Below, piece by piece: positions 6,193-40,812 of a stretch of 64,000 bases of DNA; the first letter of the stretch is position 1; each line of letters begins with the position of its first letter. The notes beneath the pieces were generated by a model. It was given only the letters and a program-made list of their open reading frames with translations, did not search any database and was not told the DNA's origin. The position numbers and the translations under genes were made by a program. This stretch comes from Chloroflexi bacterium HGW-Chloroflexi-6 (GTDB lineage Bacteria; Chloroflexota; Anaerolineae; Anaerolineales; Villigracilaceae): NCBI GenBank assembly GCA_002840685.1, contig PHBU01000002.1, positions 342,913-406,912 on the forward strand, read 5' to 3'.

Positions 6193-7032
6193 TTATGCGG
6201 CAGAGATGCGGCCATACGCGCTCGGGCGGCGTTGTTGGAGCAGCGGGAAGAGCCTGCGCCATTCTTGTAGTGCGGCCGGGTCGAGGTCGGTTACGAGCAG
6301 TTCGTCACGGTCGCGGCTGGCCTGGATGATGATGGTGCCGTTTGGTTCACAGATAAAACTTGACCCGTAGAAGGTGACGCCCTCCAGTCCGACCCGGTTG
6401 GCGGCGGCGATAAAAACCCCGCTGGCGATGGCCTGTCCACGCATGACGGTTTGCCATGAGTCTTTCGTGTCCACGCCGGGGTTGGTCGGCTCCGAGCCGA
6501 TGGCAGTCGGGTAGAAGATGAATTTGGCCCCGTTGAGTGCGCAAATGCGCGACATTTCGGGGAACCACTGATCGTAGCAGGTCGGGATGGCGATCTTGAC
6601 GCCGAGCACATCGTGAATGGGATACCGGTCACTGCCAGCGAAAAAATGGTTTTCGTGATAGCCTTCTCCTTGTGGAATGTGGACTTTTCGGGTGAAACCG
6701 TGTAAATTTCCTTGCGGATTATAGATGGTGGCCGTGTCCCAGTACTTTTCGCCTTCGCGTTCGAAAATGCTGCCTATAATGAAAAGCCCGTGTTTCTGGG
6801 CCAGTTTCCCGAGAAAATCGTGGGTTGGGCCGCCTTCGAGCGGCTCCGCCCAGTCAAACCCGGCCGGGTCGAGGGTGCTGGCAAAATAGGGTGAGAGTGT
6901 GAACTCTTGGAGACAGACCAGTTGTGCGCCTTTTGCAGCCGCCTCGGCGATTTTTTGATGGTAAACCGCTTGCATGATCTGGCGTGTGCCCGGCCAACGA
7001 GTTTGAATGAGGGCAACCCTGATATTCTGCAT
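6193..7032 (-). CDS. aguB: N-carbamoylputrescine amidase
   Basis: AguB hydrolyses N-carbamoylputrescine to putrescine, CO2 and ammonia, the last step of the agmatine route. The nitrilase-superfamily triad is visible: Glu43 (LQEFTLSPYF), Lys116 (TRKVHIPQGEGYHE) and Cys152 (IPTCYDQWFPE). The length of 279 residues fits. The start at 7032 is chosen over an upstream ATG because AAGGAG lies 7 nt before it. The divergent neighbour is agmatine deiminase, which supplies the substrate, so the pair completes the pathway. Confidence 0.93.
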   Translation of the reverse strand: MQNIRVALIQTRWPGTRQIMQAVYHQKIAEAAAKGAQLVCLQEFTLSPYFASTLDPAGFDWAEPLEGGPTHDFLGKLAQKHGLFIIGSIFEREGEKYWDTATIYNPQGNLHGFTRKVHIPQGEGYHENHFFAGSDRYPIHDVLGVKIAIPTCYDQWFPEMSRICALNGAKFIFYPTAIGSEPTNPGVDTKDSWQTVMRGQAIASGVFIAAANRVGLEGVTFYGSSFICEPNGTIIIQASRDRDELLVTDLDPAALQEWRRLFPLLQQRRPSAYGRISAA

Positions 7033-7103
7033 GGAAAGCTCCTTGTATCGAGAATGCAATTCGTTGTTTCTGGAAATAGAACACTAATTTTACCGGAGAT
7101 ACC

Positions 7104-8198
7104 ATGTCTCTACCACATTCATCCACTCCTCGCGCAGATGGTTTCTCGATGCCCGCCGAGTTTGCGCTGCATACCGCCACCTGGATGCTCTGGCCCCAGC
7201 GCCCCGATAACTGGCGGCTGGGCGCCAGGCCGGCTCAGAAGGCATTTGCATCGGTTGCCAGCGCCATAGCGCAGTTTGAGCCTGTAACTGTGGGCGTCAA
7301 CCACAATCAATTTATGAATGCCCGCCAGATGCTGCCAGTTGGAGTTCGGGTTATCGAGTTGTCGAGCAACGATGCCTGGATGCGCGATTGCGGTCCGAGC
7401 TTTGTCAGCGATGGCAAGCGCCTGCGCGGTGTTGACTGGATATTCAATGCCTGGGGCGGATTGTATAACGGGTTGTATTTTCCATGGGATTTGGACGAGG
7501 CGGTTGCCGCGAAGGTGCTCGAAATCGAAAGCCTTGACCGTTACGAAGCTCCGCTGGTGCTGGAGGGTGGTTCGATCCATGTCGATGGTGAGGGAACTTG
7601 CATCACGACCGCCGAATGCCTGCTCAGCCCTGGCCGCAACCCGGATTTATCGCAGGCAGAGATCGAATCCCACCTGAAAGAGTATCTCGACGTTGAAAAA
7701 GTGCTCTGGATCCCACGCGGGGTCTACAATGACGAGACAACCGGCCATGTCGATAACCTGGCTTGTTTCTTGCGTCCGGCTGAAATCGCCCTAACCTGGA
7801 CAGATGACAGATCTGACCCGCAGTATGAGCGTTCCGCCGAAGCTTATAAGTTTCTCATGGCGCAGGTTGACGCCAGGGGGCGCAAACTGACTGTTCATAA
7901 GATTCAACAGCCGGACCCGATTTTGATTAGCCCTGAAGAAGCCGAAGGCGTGCAGGTTGTCGACGGAACCTTGCCTCGCAAGGCGGGTGACCGAATGGCG
8001 GCTTCTTATATTAACTTCTATTTTTGCAACGGCGGCGCGATCATCCCAAGTTTTGGCGACCGGCACGATGCCGAGGCGTTGGCAACGCTCCAGAAGCTGC
8101 TGCCCGAGCGAAGGGTGGTGAGTGTCCCGGCTCGCGAAATTCTGCTGGGCGGCGGCAACATCCACTGCATCACCCAGCAGCAACCGCGGGTTGGTTAA
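7104..8198 (+). CDS. aguA: Agmatine deiminase
   Basis: AguA converts agmatine to N-carbamoylputrescine and ammonia. The 364-residue protein shows the family marks: MPAEF near the N-terminus, the [10 protein letters not shown] substrate-binding block, [11 protein letters not shown], and the catalytic cysteine Cys355 in [17 protein letters not shown] lies 8 nt before the ATG. It is divergent from aguB across about 70 bp, which must carry both promoters. Its last 4 nt overlap the convergent gene at 8195. Confidence 0.95.
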
Positions 8199-36962: not shown

Positions 36963-37856
36963 ATGTCCAGCGACCTTGAACTTTACCGCACGATGTACCT
37001 GATCAGACGCTTTGAAGAACGCGCCCTAGCCGAATTTTCTACCGGGAAGCTCTTCGGCACCACCCATGCCTACATTGGCCAGGAAGCCGATGCTGCTGCG
37101 GTTTTCGCCACCCTTGGCCCCGAGGATGTCATTTTCAGCAACCATCGCTGTCACGGCCATTTCCTGGCCTATGGCGGCGATCCTTACCGTCTGGCCGCCG
37201 AACTGATGGGGCGCGCCACCGGCCTGGTTGGCGGGCGCGGCGGCAGCCAGCACATCCACTGGCGCAATTTTTACTCGAACGGCATTCAGGGCGGGATTGT
37301 CCCGGTTGCGACCGGGATTGCCCTGGCTGAAAAAGCCAAAAAGAGCGGCACGATCTCAGTCGTTTTCGTCGGCGACGGCACATTGGGTGAAGGGGCGCTC
37401 TACGAAAGCCTGAATGTCGCCGCCCTCTGGAAATTGCCGGTTCTGTACGTAGTTGAAAACAACCGCTATGCCCAGACCACCCCGACCGAGTTGGGCGTGG
37501 CCGGTTCGATCCCAGCCCGCTTCAAGGCTTTTGGGATCGAGACCTGGGAGGCGGCTTCGAGCGATGTCCTGACCCTTGGGCTGGTCGCGCGCGAAGCGGT
37601 TGACCACGCGCGCAGCGGACTGCCCGCAGCCTTGATTTTGCACACTTACCGATTCTCCGCCCACAGCAAGGGCGACGACCCGCGCGACCCGGCTGAGATT
37701 GCAAAAACCCGGGCGGAGTTTGACCCGCTCACTATCCACGCCCCGCGGCTTGACCCCGCCGCCCGCGCTTCCGTCGAAGCCGAAACCGAGGCCATCATCG
37801 ACGATGCCTTCGTGCGCGCGATGAAAGACCCCTTTCCAATCCTGAATGCAGAATGA
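36963..37856 (+). CDS. 2-oxoacid dehydrogenase E1 component, alpha subunit
   Basis: The subunit (297 aa) binds thiamine diphosphate and, with E1-beta, decarboxylates a 2-oxoacid and transfers the acyl group to a lipoyl domain. The ThDP motif is FVGDGTLGEG...VVENNRYA (Gly-Asp-Gly at 137-139, Asn-Asn at 166-167). The phosphorylation-loop region RFSAHSKGDDPRD is of the acetoin/pyruvate type. It is shorter than PDH E1-alpha. The substrate is not evident. E1-beta follows 54 nt downstream, and a lipoyl-NeuD fusion gene lies within 2 kb; no E3 gene is in the window. Confidence 0.93.
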   Translation: MSSDLELYRTMYLIRRFEERALAEFSTGKLFGTTHAYIGQEADAAAVFATLGPEDVIFSNHRCHGHFLAYGGDPYRLAAELMGRATGLVGGRGGSQHIHWRNFYSNGIQGGIVPVATGIALAEKAKKSGTISVVFVGDGTLGEGALYESLNVAALWKLPVLYVVENNRYAQTTPTELGVAGSIPARFKAFGIETWEAASSDVLTLGLVAREAVDHARSGLPAALILHTYRFSAHSKGDDPRDPAEIAKTRAEFDPLTIHAPRLDPAARASVEAETEAIIDDAFVRAMKDPFPILNAE

Positions 37857-37900
37857 AGAATGCAGATTTTCCATTCTACACTCATCATTCTGCACTCTGA
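37843..37900. repeat. Inverted repeat at the E1-alpha/E1-beta junction
   Basis: TGAATGCAGAATGA (ending at the E1-alpha stop) is followed by TCATTCTGCACTCTGA at 37885-37900, an imperfect inverted copy. The resulting stem could stabilise or separate the two messages. Confidence 0.6.
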
Positions 37901-37910
37901 ATTATAAAAA

Positions 37911-38909
37911 ATGCCTACCATCCTCGAATCCATCAACTCTGCCCTGCATACTGCTCTCGAAAACGATCCGTGCGTTTACGTACTAGGCGAGGATATTCTC
38001 GACCCGTATGGCGGCGCGTTCAAGGTCACCCGCGGACTTTCAACCCGCTTCCCTGAGCGTGTTTTGACCACACCCATTTCCGAAGCGGCCATTTTGGGCA
38101 TTTGCAACGGCATGGCCCTGCGCGGACTGCGCCCGGTGGCCGAGGTCATGTTTGGCGACTTCGTAACCCTGATGGCCGACCAGTTGATTAATCATGCGGC
38201 CAAATTCCGCTGGATGTACAACGACCAGGTGCGTGTGCCGCTCGTTCTGCGCCTGCCGATGGGCGGGCGGCGCGGTTATGGCCCGACCCATTCCCAGTCG
38301 CTTGAAAAACATTTGCTTGGCGCGCCCGGCCTGAAAGCGGTTGCCCCCAACACGCTCGGCAATCCGTCCGACCTGTTGCTGGCCGCGATTGCCGATGATG
38401 ACCCGGTATTGTTCGTCGAGCACAAACTGCTTTATACGCGCCATCTGCTTACCCCGGAAGACCTGCTAGATTGGAAAGTGGAAAGCGGCGGCCGCCCGTT
38501 CCCATTTCATATTTTGCGCAATGCCGAGAACCTGCCTGCCAGGTTGACGATTGCCACCTACGGTTACAATTTCGAGTTGGCCCGCGAAGCCGCGCGCGAG
38601 TTGATGTATGAATATGAAATCTTTAGTGAAATTGTGCTCTTCAGCCAGCTCAGCCCGTTTGAACTCGATCCGCTCTTCGATTCGCTGCGCCGCACCGGGC
38701 GCTTGCTAACCCTTGAAGAAGGCACGCAAACCCTTGGCTGGGGCGCGGAGGTGGCTGCTCGCAGCGCCGAACAGCTGCCGGGCGCAGTCCGCATCCGTCG
38801 CCTGGGTGCGCTCGACCTGCCCATCGCCAATGCCAAATCCCTTGAAGACGATATCCTGCCTTCGACAGGGAAGATCATCCAGACTGCGCTGGCGCTGCTG
38901 GAAAATTAA
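37911..38909 (+). CDS. 2-oxoacid dehydrogenase E1 component, beta subunit
   Basis: This 332-residue partner of E1-alpha has the transketolase-like fold with LGEDILDPYGGAFKVTRGL (core GEDILDPYGGAFKV), TPISEAAILGICNGMAL (core PISEAAILGICNG), and a C-terminal domain with LTLEEGTQTLGWGAEV. The start has no Shine-Dalgarno site. The central insertion (KVESGGRPFPFHIL) is unlike the usual PDH beta chain and may alter substrate choice. The product should be handed to a lipoyl domain; the closest candidate in the window is the fusion protein at 39721. Confidence 0.93.
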   Translation: MPTILESINSALHTALENDPCVYVLGEDILDPYGGAFKVTRGLSTRFPERVLTTPISEAAILGICNGMALRGLRPVAEVMFGDFVTLMADQLINHAAKFRWMYNDQVRVPLVLRLPMGGRRGYGPTHSQSLEKHLLGAPGLKAVAPNTLGNPSDLLLAAIADDDPVLFVEHKLLYTRHLLTPEDLLDWKVESGGRPFPFHILRNAENLPARLTIATYGYNFELAREAARELMYEYEIFSEIVLFSQLSPFELDPLFDSLRRTGRLLTLEEGTQTLGWGAEVAARSAEQLPGAVRIRRLGALDLPIANAKSLEDDILPSTGKIIQTALALLEN

Positions 38910-38910
38910 C

Positions 38911-38943
38911 AAAAAAGCCCGAAAGGCGCGAAACCTTTCGGGC
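38911..38943 (-). terminator. Terminator of the DUF4013 gene
   Basis: GCCCGAAAGG and CCTTTCGGGC form a 10-bp stem. On the minus strand six Ts follow. It may also slow the convergent E1-beta transcript. Confidence 0.85.
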
Positions 38944-38961
38944 AATTGCTTGAAAATTGAA

Positions 38962-39630
38962 TTACAGGGCAGGTTGGGCGGCTTTGGCAGTGTTATAGGC
39001 CTGGCCGTAGAAGTGAGCCATGATCGCAGTAGCAAGCGCACTGGTGAAGATGACACCAATAACGCAAGCGATCAGGCCAAGCGATGCGAGAAAACCGGCG
39101 GCAATGCTGCCAACCAGCACCAATACATATGCGCCGGGAGCGGCTTTAATCATCCCGAAGATTTCGCCGAAGCGGAAACCCGCACCGATTTCGCCAGTGA
39201 CTGCTACTTTGGCGTAAGCAACAGGTGTTACCAGGCCAAGGAAAATGCTGTAGATGATCATCAAGCAGCTAAAGCAGATCGACACAACGCCAGTGATCAT
39301 CATAACGGTTTCGTAAGTGTCGCCGCTCATGTTTTCGGCCAGGATGGGCAGGATGTTGGTGCAGCTTGACATGACGGTCACGGGCAGGCTGTAAGCGAAG
39401 CCAACCACAAAGGCCTTGAAGCCAAGCGTCATATGGTCGCTGAAGTTGTCCCAGCCGGGAAGCAGGTCGGTGGTCTGGCCGTCGATCAAGCGTTTTGTGA
39501 CGGTCAGGCTCCAGCCGAGCACTGTGATTGGGCCGAGTACGGGAATCAGAAAAACCAACGCTGCTATACCGACTTTTTTGAGCCAATCTTGGTCTTCAAA
39601 AATGTATGAAAAAGCACGTGCGAAATCCAT
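38962..39630 (-). CDS. DUF4013 membrane protein
   Basis: The 222-residue protein has about six membrane helices in the DUF4013 pattern: DFARAFSYIFEDQDWLKKVG at the N-terminus, GWDNFSDHMTLGFKAFVVGF in the middle. The function is unknown. The ATG at 39630 is preferred over one six codons upstream because AAGGAG lies 7 nt before it. It is inverted between E1-beta and the lipoyl-NeuD gene, so those are not in one simple operon. Confidence 0.85.
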   Translation of the reverse strand: MDFARAFSYIFEDQDWLKKVGIAALVFLIPVLGPITVLGWSLTVTKRLIDGQTTDLLPGWDNFSDHMTLGFKAFVVGFAYSLPVTVMSSCTNILPILAENMSGDTYETVMMITGVVSICFSCLMIIYSIFLGLVTPVAYAKVAVTGEIGAGFRFGEIFGMIKAAPGAYVLVLVGSIAAGFLASLGLIACVIGVIFTSALATAIMAHFYGQAYNTAKAAQPAL

Positions 39631-39720
39631 AGTATTCTCCTTGTTCAAGTAATGTGATAATCTGATTATAGACTAAAAAGCTCGAATATTTGTTATTTTC
39701 CCCAAAAATAGGAATTTTAG

Positions 39721-40812
39721 ATGCCCCAAACCCCGATCACTGTCCCCCTTTTAAATGCCAATGAGCCTGAGGCCCGCCTCGTGGATGTCCATGTTGCTGA
39801 CGGCCAGCGCGTTGAAGCCGGCGCGATCTTGTTTACAATCGAAACCACCAAAGCCGCCAGCGATGTCGAAGCGCCGACCGTCGGTTATGTGCGGATGCTG
39901 GCCGCTGAGGGCGATATCCTGGCAGTGGGCGACGTGCTGGCCTATTTGACCGAGACCGCCAACGAAGCGCTGGAACACTCTCCGCGCAGCCTGCCGGTCG
40001 TTTCGACGCAGGATGCCACCCCGGACGGGTTGCGTATTACCCGGCCTGCCCAGGCCCTGGCGGAGAGCCTCGGCCTTGAACTTTCATCCCTGCCGACCGG
40101 CCGCTTGCTGACCGAAGCCGCCATCCGCGAGATCGCCGCTGCGCGCCAGCCGATCGATTTGCCTGATTATGATAACGATCACATTCTCATTTATGGGGCG
40201 GGCGGGCATGCCAAAGCCGTGATGGAAATGGTCCAGGCCATCGGCGCACATCGCATCGCGGGCATTCTGGACGATAACCCGGCCCTGGCGGGCAAATCCG
40301 TGCTGGGAATCCCGGTTTTGGGCGGGCGCGGCCTTTTGGCGCTGCTGCGCGAGAAGGGCCTGATGCTGGCGGCCAACGGCGTCGGCGGAATATTGGATAT
40401 TGCGGTGCGGGTGCGTTTGTTCGAGTTACAGGAAAGCGCCGGGTTCAGTTTCCCGGCCCTGGCGCACCCACGCGCAACGGTCGAGGCCAGCGCCAGCCTT
40501 TCAGATGGGGTTCAGGTTTTTGCCAATGCCTATGTCGGGTCTTCGACGGTGCTCCATCCACGCTGCATGGTCAATACCGGCGCGATCGTTTCGCACGATT
40601 GCGAAATTGGGCGCTATACCCATATAGCGCCGGGCGCGATGCTGGCCGGGCATGTGCATGTCGGCGAGCGCAGCCTGGTCGGGATGGGTGTCACGACTGC
40701 AATTGGAATTAAAATTGGGAATGGGGTGCGAATCGGCAACGGGGCGGTGGTGTATGCCGATGTGCCAGATAAAACTATCCTGCCGGCAGGTAAGGTCTGG
40801 GCAGGGGGGTAG
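39721..40812 (+). CDS. Lipoyl domain/E3-binding domain fused to a NeuD/PglD-like acyltransferase
   Basis: This 363-residue protein has three parts. Residues ~5-80 form a biotinyl/lipoyl domain with the modifiable Lys44 in FTIETTKAASDVEAP. Residues ~105-141 look like the peripheral subunit-binding domain of E2 enzymes (RITRPAQALAESLGLELSSL, then GRLLTEAAI). Residues ~153-363 are a sugar O/N-acyltransferase of the NeuD/PglD type: a Rossmann-like N-domain (ILIYGAGGHAKAVMEM), then left-handed beta-helix hexapeptide repeats with the catalytic-type His292 in VNTGAIVSHDCEIG. The usual E2 catalytic domain is absent. With E1-alpha/beta nearby, acyl groups could pass from lipoyl-Lys44 to an amino or hydroxyl acceptor. 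The domain calls are firm and the pathway is inference. Confidence 0.88.
   Translation: MPQTPITVPLLNANEPEARLVDVHVADGQRVEAGAILFTIETTKAASDVEAPTVGYVRMLAAEGDILAVGDVLAYLTETANEALEHSPRSLPVVSTQDATPDGLRITRPAQALAESLGLELSSLPTGRLLTEAAIREIAAARQPIDLPDYDNDHILIYGAGGHAKAVMEMVQAIGAHRIAGILDDNPALAGKSVLGIPVLGGRGLLALLREKGLMLAANGVGGILDIAVRVRLFELQESAGFSFPALAHPRATVEASASLSDGVQVFANAYVGSSTVLHPRCMVNTGAIVSHDCEIGRYTHIAPGAMLAGHVHVGERSLVGMGVTTAIGIKIGNGVRIGNGAVVYADVPDKTILPAGKVWAGG

Follow-up and report, generated by a model that had tools for sequence, protein, structure and literature searches.

A dedicated E1 pair and a lipoyl-NeuD fusion protein in a Chloroflexota genome suggest 2-oxoacid-dependent acylation of nucleotide sugars

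The 64,000-nucleotide stretch of Chloroflexi bacterium HGW-Chloroflexi-6 analyzed in this study (contig PHBU01000002.1, positions 342,913 to 406,912; hereafter the window) encodes both E1 subunits of a 2-oxoacid dehydrogenase-type enzyme and, downstream on the same strand, a protein in which a lipoyl domain is fused to a sugar acyltransferase of the NeuD family. The findings suggested that the dedicated E1 pair and the fusion jointly form an acyltransferase that depends on a 2-oxo acid and would pass the acyl group directly to a nucleotide sugar, with no acyl-coenzyme A (acyl-CoA) intermediate, a reading to which we give a probability of about 0.6. The coupling of this E1 to the fusion was well supported by the genome survey described below. 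An earlier reading of the nucleotide letters (the sequence-only reading) had pointed to E1-alpha and E1-beta genes upstream of the fusion, and both were present. The features of the system were as follows.

36963..37856, plus strand: E1-alpha, dedicated 2-oxoacid decarboxylase/dehydrogenase subunit, 297 aa (PF00676, E=4.9e-51)
37911..38909, plus strand: E1-beta, 332 aa (PF02779, 7.3e-31; PF02780, 3.3e-13)
39721..40812, plus strand: lipoyl-NeuD fusion, 363 aa (profile matches; AlphaFold2 mean pLDDT 90.6)
39721..39960, plus strand: lipoyl domain of the fusion, residues 1-80 (PF00364; Foldseek match 3crk_C)
39850..39852, plus strand: Lys44 codon, predicted lipoylation site in ETTKA (invariant in the alignment; turn between model strands 36-41 and 46-50)
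40033..40149, plus strand: PSBD (E1/E3-binding)-like helical domain, residues 105-143 (model helices 108-116 and 132-142; HHalign)
40183..40410, plus strand: PglD_N-type Rossmann domain with a GAGGHA motif, approximately residues 155-230 (PF17836 at 155-210)
40453..40779, plus strand: left-handed beta-helix acyltransferase core, approximately residues 245-353 (Hexapep PF00132; Foldseek matches 4m99 and 4ea7)
40594..40596, plus strand: His292 codon, predicted catalytic base (invariant; aligned with the PerB His in 'VDHDC')

To follow the pairing across genomes, the fusion and E1-alpha each served as query against 150 genomes of the window's family, presence being counted from the best match per genome. 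The dedicated E1-alpha was found in 35 of the 150 (at least 233 bits; the next match scored 198) and the fusion in 34, all of them among those 35. These 34 comprised 28 full-length fusions of the window's type (type A), one of a diverged type (type B, in G110) and five partial or contig-cut matches (G029, G055, G064, G069 and G071), G055 showing residues 183-360 only. The sole genome with E1-alpha in which no fusion was seen was G046, where E1-beta ran off the contig start. The fusion was flanked by E1-beta on the same strand in 27 of the 28 full-length type A loci, the exception (L024) being a locus that a contig end cuts off 226 bases ahead of the match. In 13 of these 27 no DUF4013 gene was present and E1-beta was followed directly by the fusion; 3 bases separated the two genes in L085/L053. 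No E1 was found in a control set of 25 class loci with a lipoyl-less NeuD (lysine-less in L056), for which flanks of about 1.5 kb were taken where the contig permitted. Full-length fusions occurred in 5 of 298 genomes of the wider class at E<=1e-25 (G000, G018, G400, G380 and G359), and E1-fusion pairing was repeated across the window's family and extended to further families of the class, which excluded confinement of the architecture to this assembly, an outcome the sequence-only reading had named as fatal to its proposal. A local oddity or assembly artefact was rejected by the same survey of 150 family genomes. The distances of E1-alpha and the fusion were correlated (r=0.89, 26 type A loci), a value that shared species descent alone could produce. 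E1-alpha and E1-beta looked joined in one open reading frame (ORF) of ca. 650-740 aa in L007, L008, G045, G033, G011, G025 and G056.

By family membership, the fusion is a NeuD protein and not an E2, as a search for the E2 core gave no match. In profile searches, PF00364 (lipoyl) covered residues 8-76 (1.6e-9), PF17836 (PglD_N) covered residues 155-210 (4.1e-11), Hexapep PF00132 matched at 1.4e-15, and TIGR03570 (NeuD_NnaD) scored 176.8 bits against a cut-off of 160.8. The E2 core PF00198 had no match in the window fusion and was also not among the 25 of 53 families shown for 60 fusion members; a genome-wide search placed PF00198 on contigs C1 and C2 only. The NeuD/PglD fold proposed by the sequence-only reading in place of the 2-oxoacid dehydrogenase core was borne out, and the fusion is predicted to work like an E2 whose core has been exchanged. 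Foldseek matched the modeled core to 4m99 (PglB acetyltransferase domain, TM-score (TMt) 0.90) and to 4ea7 (PerB, TMt 0.89), the PerB structures matched including wild-type, H141N and H141A entries, and matches of the lipoyl domain included 3crk_C (PDHK2-L2 complex; TMt 0.81, root-mean-square deviation 1.3, 79 columns). The fusion's His292 aligned with the PerB His. A stretch of low model confidence fell at residues 90-101.

A search with the fusion protein returned 1575 proteins at E<=1e-3, and the 120 matches listed were aligned. Counting the window protein, Lys44 was K in all 121 rows of the type A alignment, and His292 was invariant in 121/121 rows of each of the type A and type B alignments. 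Lys44 is predicted to be the lipoylation site and His292 the catalytic base; both residues and their domains lay where the sequence-only reading had placed them. Biotin in place of lipoyl was rejected, as ETTKA resembles the ETDKA of E2-type lipoyl domains and is unlike the AMKM of biotin domains.

The E3-binding-like domain that had been read between these two parts gave a weak signal. The AlphaFold2 model had a helix pair at residues 108-116 and 132-142 in this region, and HHalign of the linker against a profile of five E2s gave 93.5% for the pooled fusions and 95.4% for type B alone; it gave 2.9% for type A alone. At E<=1, the E3_binding profile matched 14 of 60 fusion members, with 8.8e-4 as the lowest value; the window fusion was not one of them.

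The dedicated E1 had the features of a heterotetrameric E1, namely an E1_dh alpha subunit, a transketolase-type beta subunit and a conserved active-site His. The best Protein Data Bank match of E1-alpha was 6cer (human pyruvate dehydrogenase (PDH) E1-alpha, 5.2e-42) and that of E1-beta was 1ik6 (1.3e-52), with whose Glu and His the Glu of TPISEA and the His of PTHSQS aligned; we take these two residues to be catalytic. The scores fell short of the thresholds set for PDH E1 equivalog models, and a PDH identity is therefore not indicated for this E1. In a quick tree, a branch with an SH-aLRT support of 100 set 32 dedicated E1-alphas, taken from fusion loci or genomes, apart from 13 canonical ones of the class. 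The 32 rows spanned types A and B, three coming from type B genomes and one (L091 of G046) from the genome without a fusion seen; L019, as a copy of the window, and L121 and L129, which had no row passing the length filter, were left out. The dedicated E1-alphas carried GT[TV]H ('GTTHAYI' in the window's E1-alpha) where the host's own PDH (L018) has 'GGFMHLY' and human PDH has GFCH; for L120, L123 and L131 the scan did not pick up the site that was sought. This pocket motif weakly suggests a 2-oxo acid other than that of PDH, the signal being weak because one canonical row, L130, also carries GTTH.

The host's ordinary PDH was encoded by E1-alpha, E1-beta and E2 genes clustered on contig C2, with a further E2 on C1. 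The host also had an E3 (568 bits, over the family cut-off), on a contig other than the window's, and LipA (369 bits). Service of the dedicated E1 to an ordinary E2 encoded elsewhere, which the sequence-only reading had listed as a possible refutation, is unlikely, since the host has its own PDH E1 and E2 and the dedicated E1 formed a separate clade that tracked the fusion.

In the proposed mechanism, the thiamine diphosphate-dependent E1 would decarboxylate a 2-oxo acid and reductively acylate lipoyl-Lys44, for which LipA would make the lipoyl cofactor. The low-confidence linker (near residues 90-101) would then let the lipoyl arm swing over to the NeuD active site, and the PSBD-like domain would keep E1 and/or E3 bound. 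By activating the acceptor amine (or hydroxyl), His292 would allow the acceptor to attack the S-acyl-dihydrolipoyl thioester, and the shared E3 would reoxidize the dihydrolipoyl group with NAD+; an E3 would therefore be needed even though it is encoded outside the locus. The net reaction would be 2-oxo acid + amino sugar nucleotide + NAD+ to N-acyl sugar nucleotide + CO2 + NADH. The inferred elements of this scheme are the lipoylation, the loading of the arm by the dedicated E1, transfer without CoA, and which 2-oxo acid and acceptor take part. Precedents that support it are LpxA and LpxD, which share the fold and draw on acyl-carrier proteins as donors, and QncN/QncL-type systems, which hand a lipoyl-borne unit to a carrier protein. 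A sugar acceptor is suggested by the fold and by one type B locus, L051.

Type B is a diverged lipoyl-NeuD clade, 22-29% identical to type A, for which the G110 protein (29% identical) served as query. It paired with the same E1 clade as type A. Among the 121 rows of its alignment (window protein counted), the lipoyl lysine was present in all 119 ungapped rows, and organism names, where given among the 120 listed matches, were all Chloroflexota. Type B differed from type A in the loss of the PglD_N GGH and in a change of HD to HH, and the two members scored against TIGR03570 fell under its cut-off (138.7 and 149 bits). It was found in 5 of 396 class genomes at E<=1e-40; the type B query matched 0 of 400 phylum genomes at E<=1e-45, an uninformative result because no known positive was among the genomes searched. 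Six type B genomes were examined for context. E1-alpha, E1-beta and fusion were consecutive in G110, G387 and G816, the fusion of G387 being cut by the contig end; in G843 E1-beta lay upstream of the fusion and the contig ended soon beyond, in G268 the contig start fell inside the fusion, and the sixth, G359, is taken up below. The neighbors of the fusion in L051, the locus of G110, were NusG-like, Bac_transf, Gfo/Idh, DegT aminotransferase, Wzz-like (below cut-off) and Wzx-type genes, and the best NCBIfam match of the Gfo/Idh protein was UDP-GlcNAc 3-dehydrogenase, also below cut-off. This arrangement marks a polysaccharide cluster with an apparent amino-sugar pathway, in which the Gfo/Idh and DegT proteins are predicted to yield a UDP-3-amino sugar.

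A related NeuD core lacking the lipoyl lysine was found in four genomes (G342, G408, G390 and G021). The dedicated E1-alpha was missing from all four, with best scores of 154, 160, 37 and 40 bits, respectively, against 233-318 bits in four fused genomes. Their NeuDs formed one clade (98/92), placed beside the fused G400/G380 proteins, and the two groups jointly (97/94) stood next to type A in the NeuD tree. In the G408 locus, E1-alpha and E1-beta were absent, the PSBD was missing and a lipoyl remnant without the lysine remained, while the gene order of G400 was otherwise kept; the upstream DNA glycosylase and epimerase-like gene were 62% and 66% identical between the two, and the downstream 589-aa protein 37%. 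Lipoyl arm and E1 thus appear, from these comparisons, to have been lost together, once. Loss is favored over two gains because G408 keeps the lipoyl remnant, and repeated independent loss of lipoyl and E1 was rejected, as the tree gave a single clade. By eye, an ORF resembling a sugar-nucleotide epimerase (L085, 11187-12119; matched in L086 and L083) was separated by a single gene from the E1 and fusion genes of G400 and G380, and a counterpart lay upstream of the reduced G408 locus. In G021, the lipoyl-less NeuD (L052, 6802-8099) overlapped an ORF that by eye resembled a bacterial sugar transferase, as in the PglC-PglD pair.

A number of observations weighed against a coupled, CoA-free acyltransferase. 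The loss of arm and E1 counts as one event and not four because the E1-less NeuDs form a single clade, and the tree alone is compatible with one loss or with two gains of the fusion. The type B core did not group with type A but was placed, with a very long branch, between other NeuDs (L015 and L063, with no core passing the filter, were left out of this tree); the two fusions may therefore have arisen separately. The window fusion belongs to type A, the type with the low HHalign value for the PSBD. In G016 (L012, contig C77), E1-alpha was retained but had moved ca. 19 kb away from its partner genes E1-beta and the fusion, and in G359 the dedicated E1 pair was on another contig, with none on that of the fusion. 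The host assembly was rated 5% contaminated. No sugar genes were recognized near the window locus or near four other type A loci (L007, L009, L011 and L012), in which ORF starts were read by eye only, and the basis for the acceptor is for this reason limited to the fold and L051. The sequence-only reading had reported neither E3 nor sugar-nucleotide genes in the window. No E3 gene was recognized near the window locus by the same reading of ORF starts either; the diverged locus L051 does have sugar-nucleotide genes.

These observations bear on several alternatives. The PglB and PerB structures matched by the NeuD core, its nearest solved relatives, hold CoA or acetyl-CoA, 24 of 60 fusion members matched the Rossmann family PF02629 (CoA_binding) weakly at E<=1, and no lipoyl-specific changes in the CoA site were evident by eye in a seven-row alignment. 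The core could be a user of acyl-CoA made locally by the lipoyl arm and E1, so that the fusion would channel CoA rather than bypass it. The reduced clade has kept this core with its His although it has to function without lipoyl, which would fit such channeling; we nevertheless consider it unlikely, as the fusion has no PF00198 core, no adjacent CoA acyltransferase was recognized by eye, and the host's separate PDH could supply acetyl-CoA, so that a dedicated E1 would bring no gain for acetyl groups. The acceptor might also be an amine or alcohol other than a nucleotide sugar, the remaining mechanism being unchanged. The lack of recognized sugar genes near the five type A loci and the loss of the PglD_N GGH histidine in type B would fit such an acceptor, which is nonetheless quite improbable given that nucleotide amino sugars are the substrates of the nearest solved relatives, that L051 is a polysaccharide cluster, and that sugar-related ORFs were seen by eye near the G400, G380 and G408 loci (epimerase-like) and overlapping the lipoyl-less NeuD of L052 (sugar transferase-like).

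The GT[TV]H motif, unlike the Phe-containing motifs of host and human PDH, could instead mark a transketolase-like E1 whose donor is a ketose or an acetoin-type compound giving up two carbons as a glycolyl or hydroxyethyl unit; the fusion would then add a glycolyl-type group by the same lipoyl chemistry. QncN/QncL-type systems load a lipoyl arm in this way. E1-alpha, however, scored best as a PDH-type E1 (238.8 bits against TIGR03182, below its cut-off of 393.85) and reached 43.6 bits with the transketolase model, and the GTTH of the canonical L130 also speaks against a two-carbon donor, which we regard as improbable. Chance proximity of an unrelated E1 to a fusion with an inert lipoyl domain would fit the unlinked pair of G359, but is very unlikely in light of the 34/35 pairing, the 27/28 adjacency and the invariant Lys44. 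Direct transfer from the lipoyl arm to a nucleotide sugar remained our preferred reading.

The remaining gene of the locus was an inverted neighbor, as the sequence-only reading had noted.

38962..39648, minus strand: DUF4013 protein, optional neighbor, between E1-beta and the fusion (PF13197, E=9.9e-26)

The DUF4013 gene was found in 14 of the 28 full-length type A loci, and a part for it in the E1/fusion system was rejected because it was present in just these 14. Elsewhere in the window, divergent ORFs at 6193-8198 resembled, by eye, N-carbamoylputrescine amidase and agmatine deiminase.

If the proposed reading is true, the core of an E2 has been swapped for an unrelated acyltransferase, and the energy of decarboxylation acylates sugars directly. 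This would provide a CoA-independent path to unusual acyl-sugars, reveal modularity in the catalytic core of E2, and assign a role to a conserved E1 pair for which PDH supplies the closest named models. The E1 pair and the lipoyl-NeuD fusion have a fair chance of being a new class of complex. The broader proposal, for which we see slightly better than even odds, is that of a CoA-free 2-oxoacid:nucleotide-sugar acyltransferase class representing a general decarboxylative acylation machine; the E2 core would be exchangeable, since the same E1 lineage was joined to two far-apart NeuD cores. The sequence-only reading knew of no biochemical description of such a route, and our searches of the literature, which covered few subscription papers, likewise found no description of a lipoyl-NeuD/E1 architecture. 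In PMC4875605, passages on the "lipoylation" of glycans concern fatty-acid synthesis genes and not this architecture.

Textbook 2-oxoacid dehydrogenase complexes finish at acyl-CoA. The present system has E1-alpha and E1-beta, a lipoyl domain with an invariant Lys, a PSBD-like domain and an E3 in the genome in common with PDH, branched-chain 2-oxoacid dehydrogenase (BCKDH) and acetoin dehydrogenase, but the fusion lacks their PF00198 core and has an unrelated acyltransferase fold instead. Known NeuD, PglD and PerB proteins use acetyl-CoA. The fusion shares with these (TIGR03570, above cut-off; PerB 4ea7, Neisseria gonorrhoeae PglB 4m99) the PglD_N domain, the left-handed beta-helix and the aligned His, and differs in adding an N-terminal lipoyl domain, a flexible linker, a PSBD-like domain and an E1 pair of its own. 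LpxA and LpxD, which take acyl groups from acyl-carrier protein to a nucleotide-sugar acceptor, have the same beta-helix fold, with weaker sequence and fold matches to the fusion core; their donor is a free-standing acyl-carrier protein, whereas here it would be a lipoyl domain within the same polypeptide, charged by E1. In QncN/QncL-type systems, an E1-like protein likewise loads a lipoyl arm whose two-carbon unit goes elsewhere than to CoA, the acceptor there being an acyl carrier protein that serves a peptide assembly line, in place of which the present system has a sugar-acyltransferase core.

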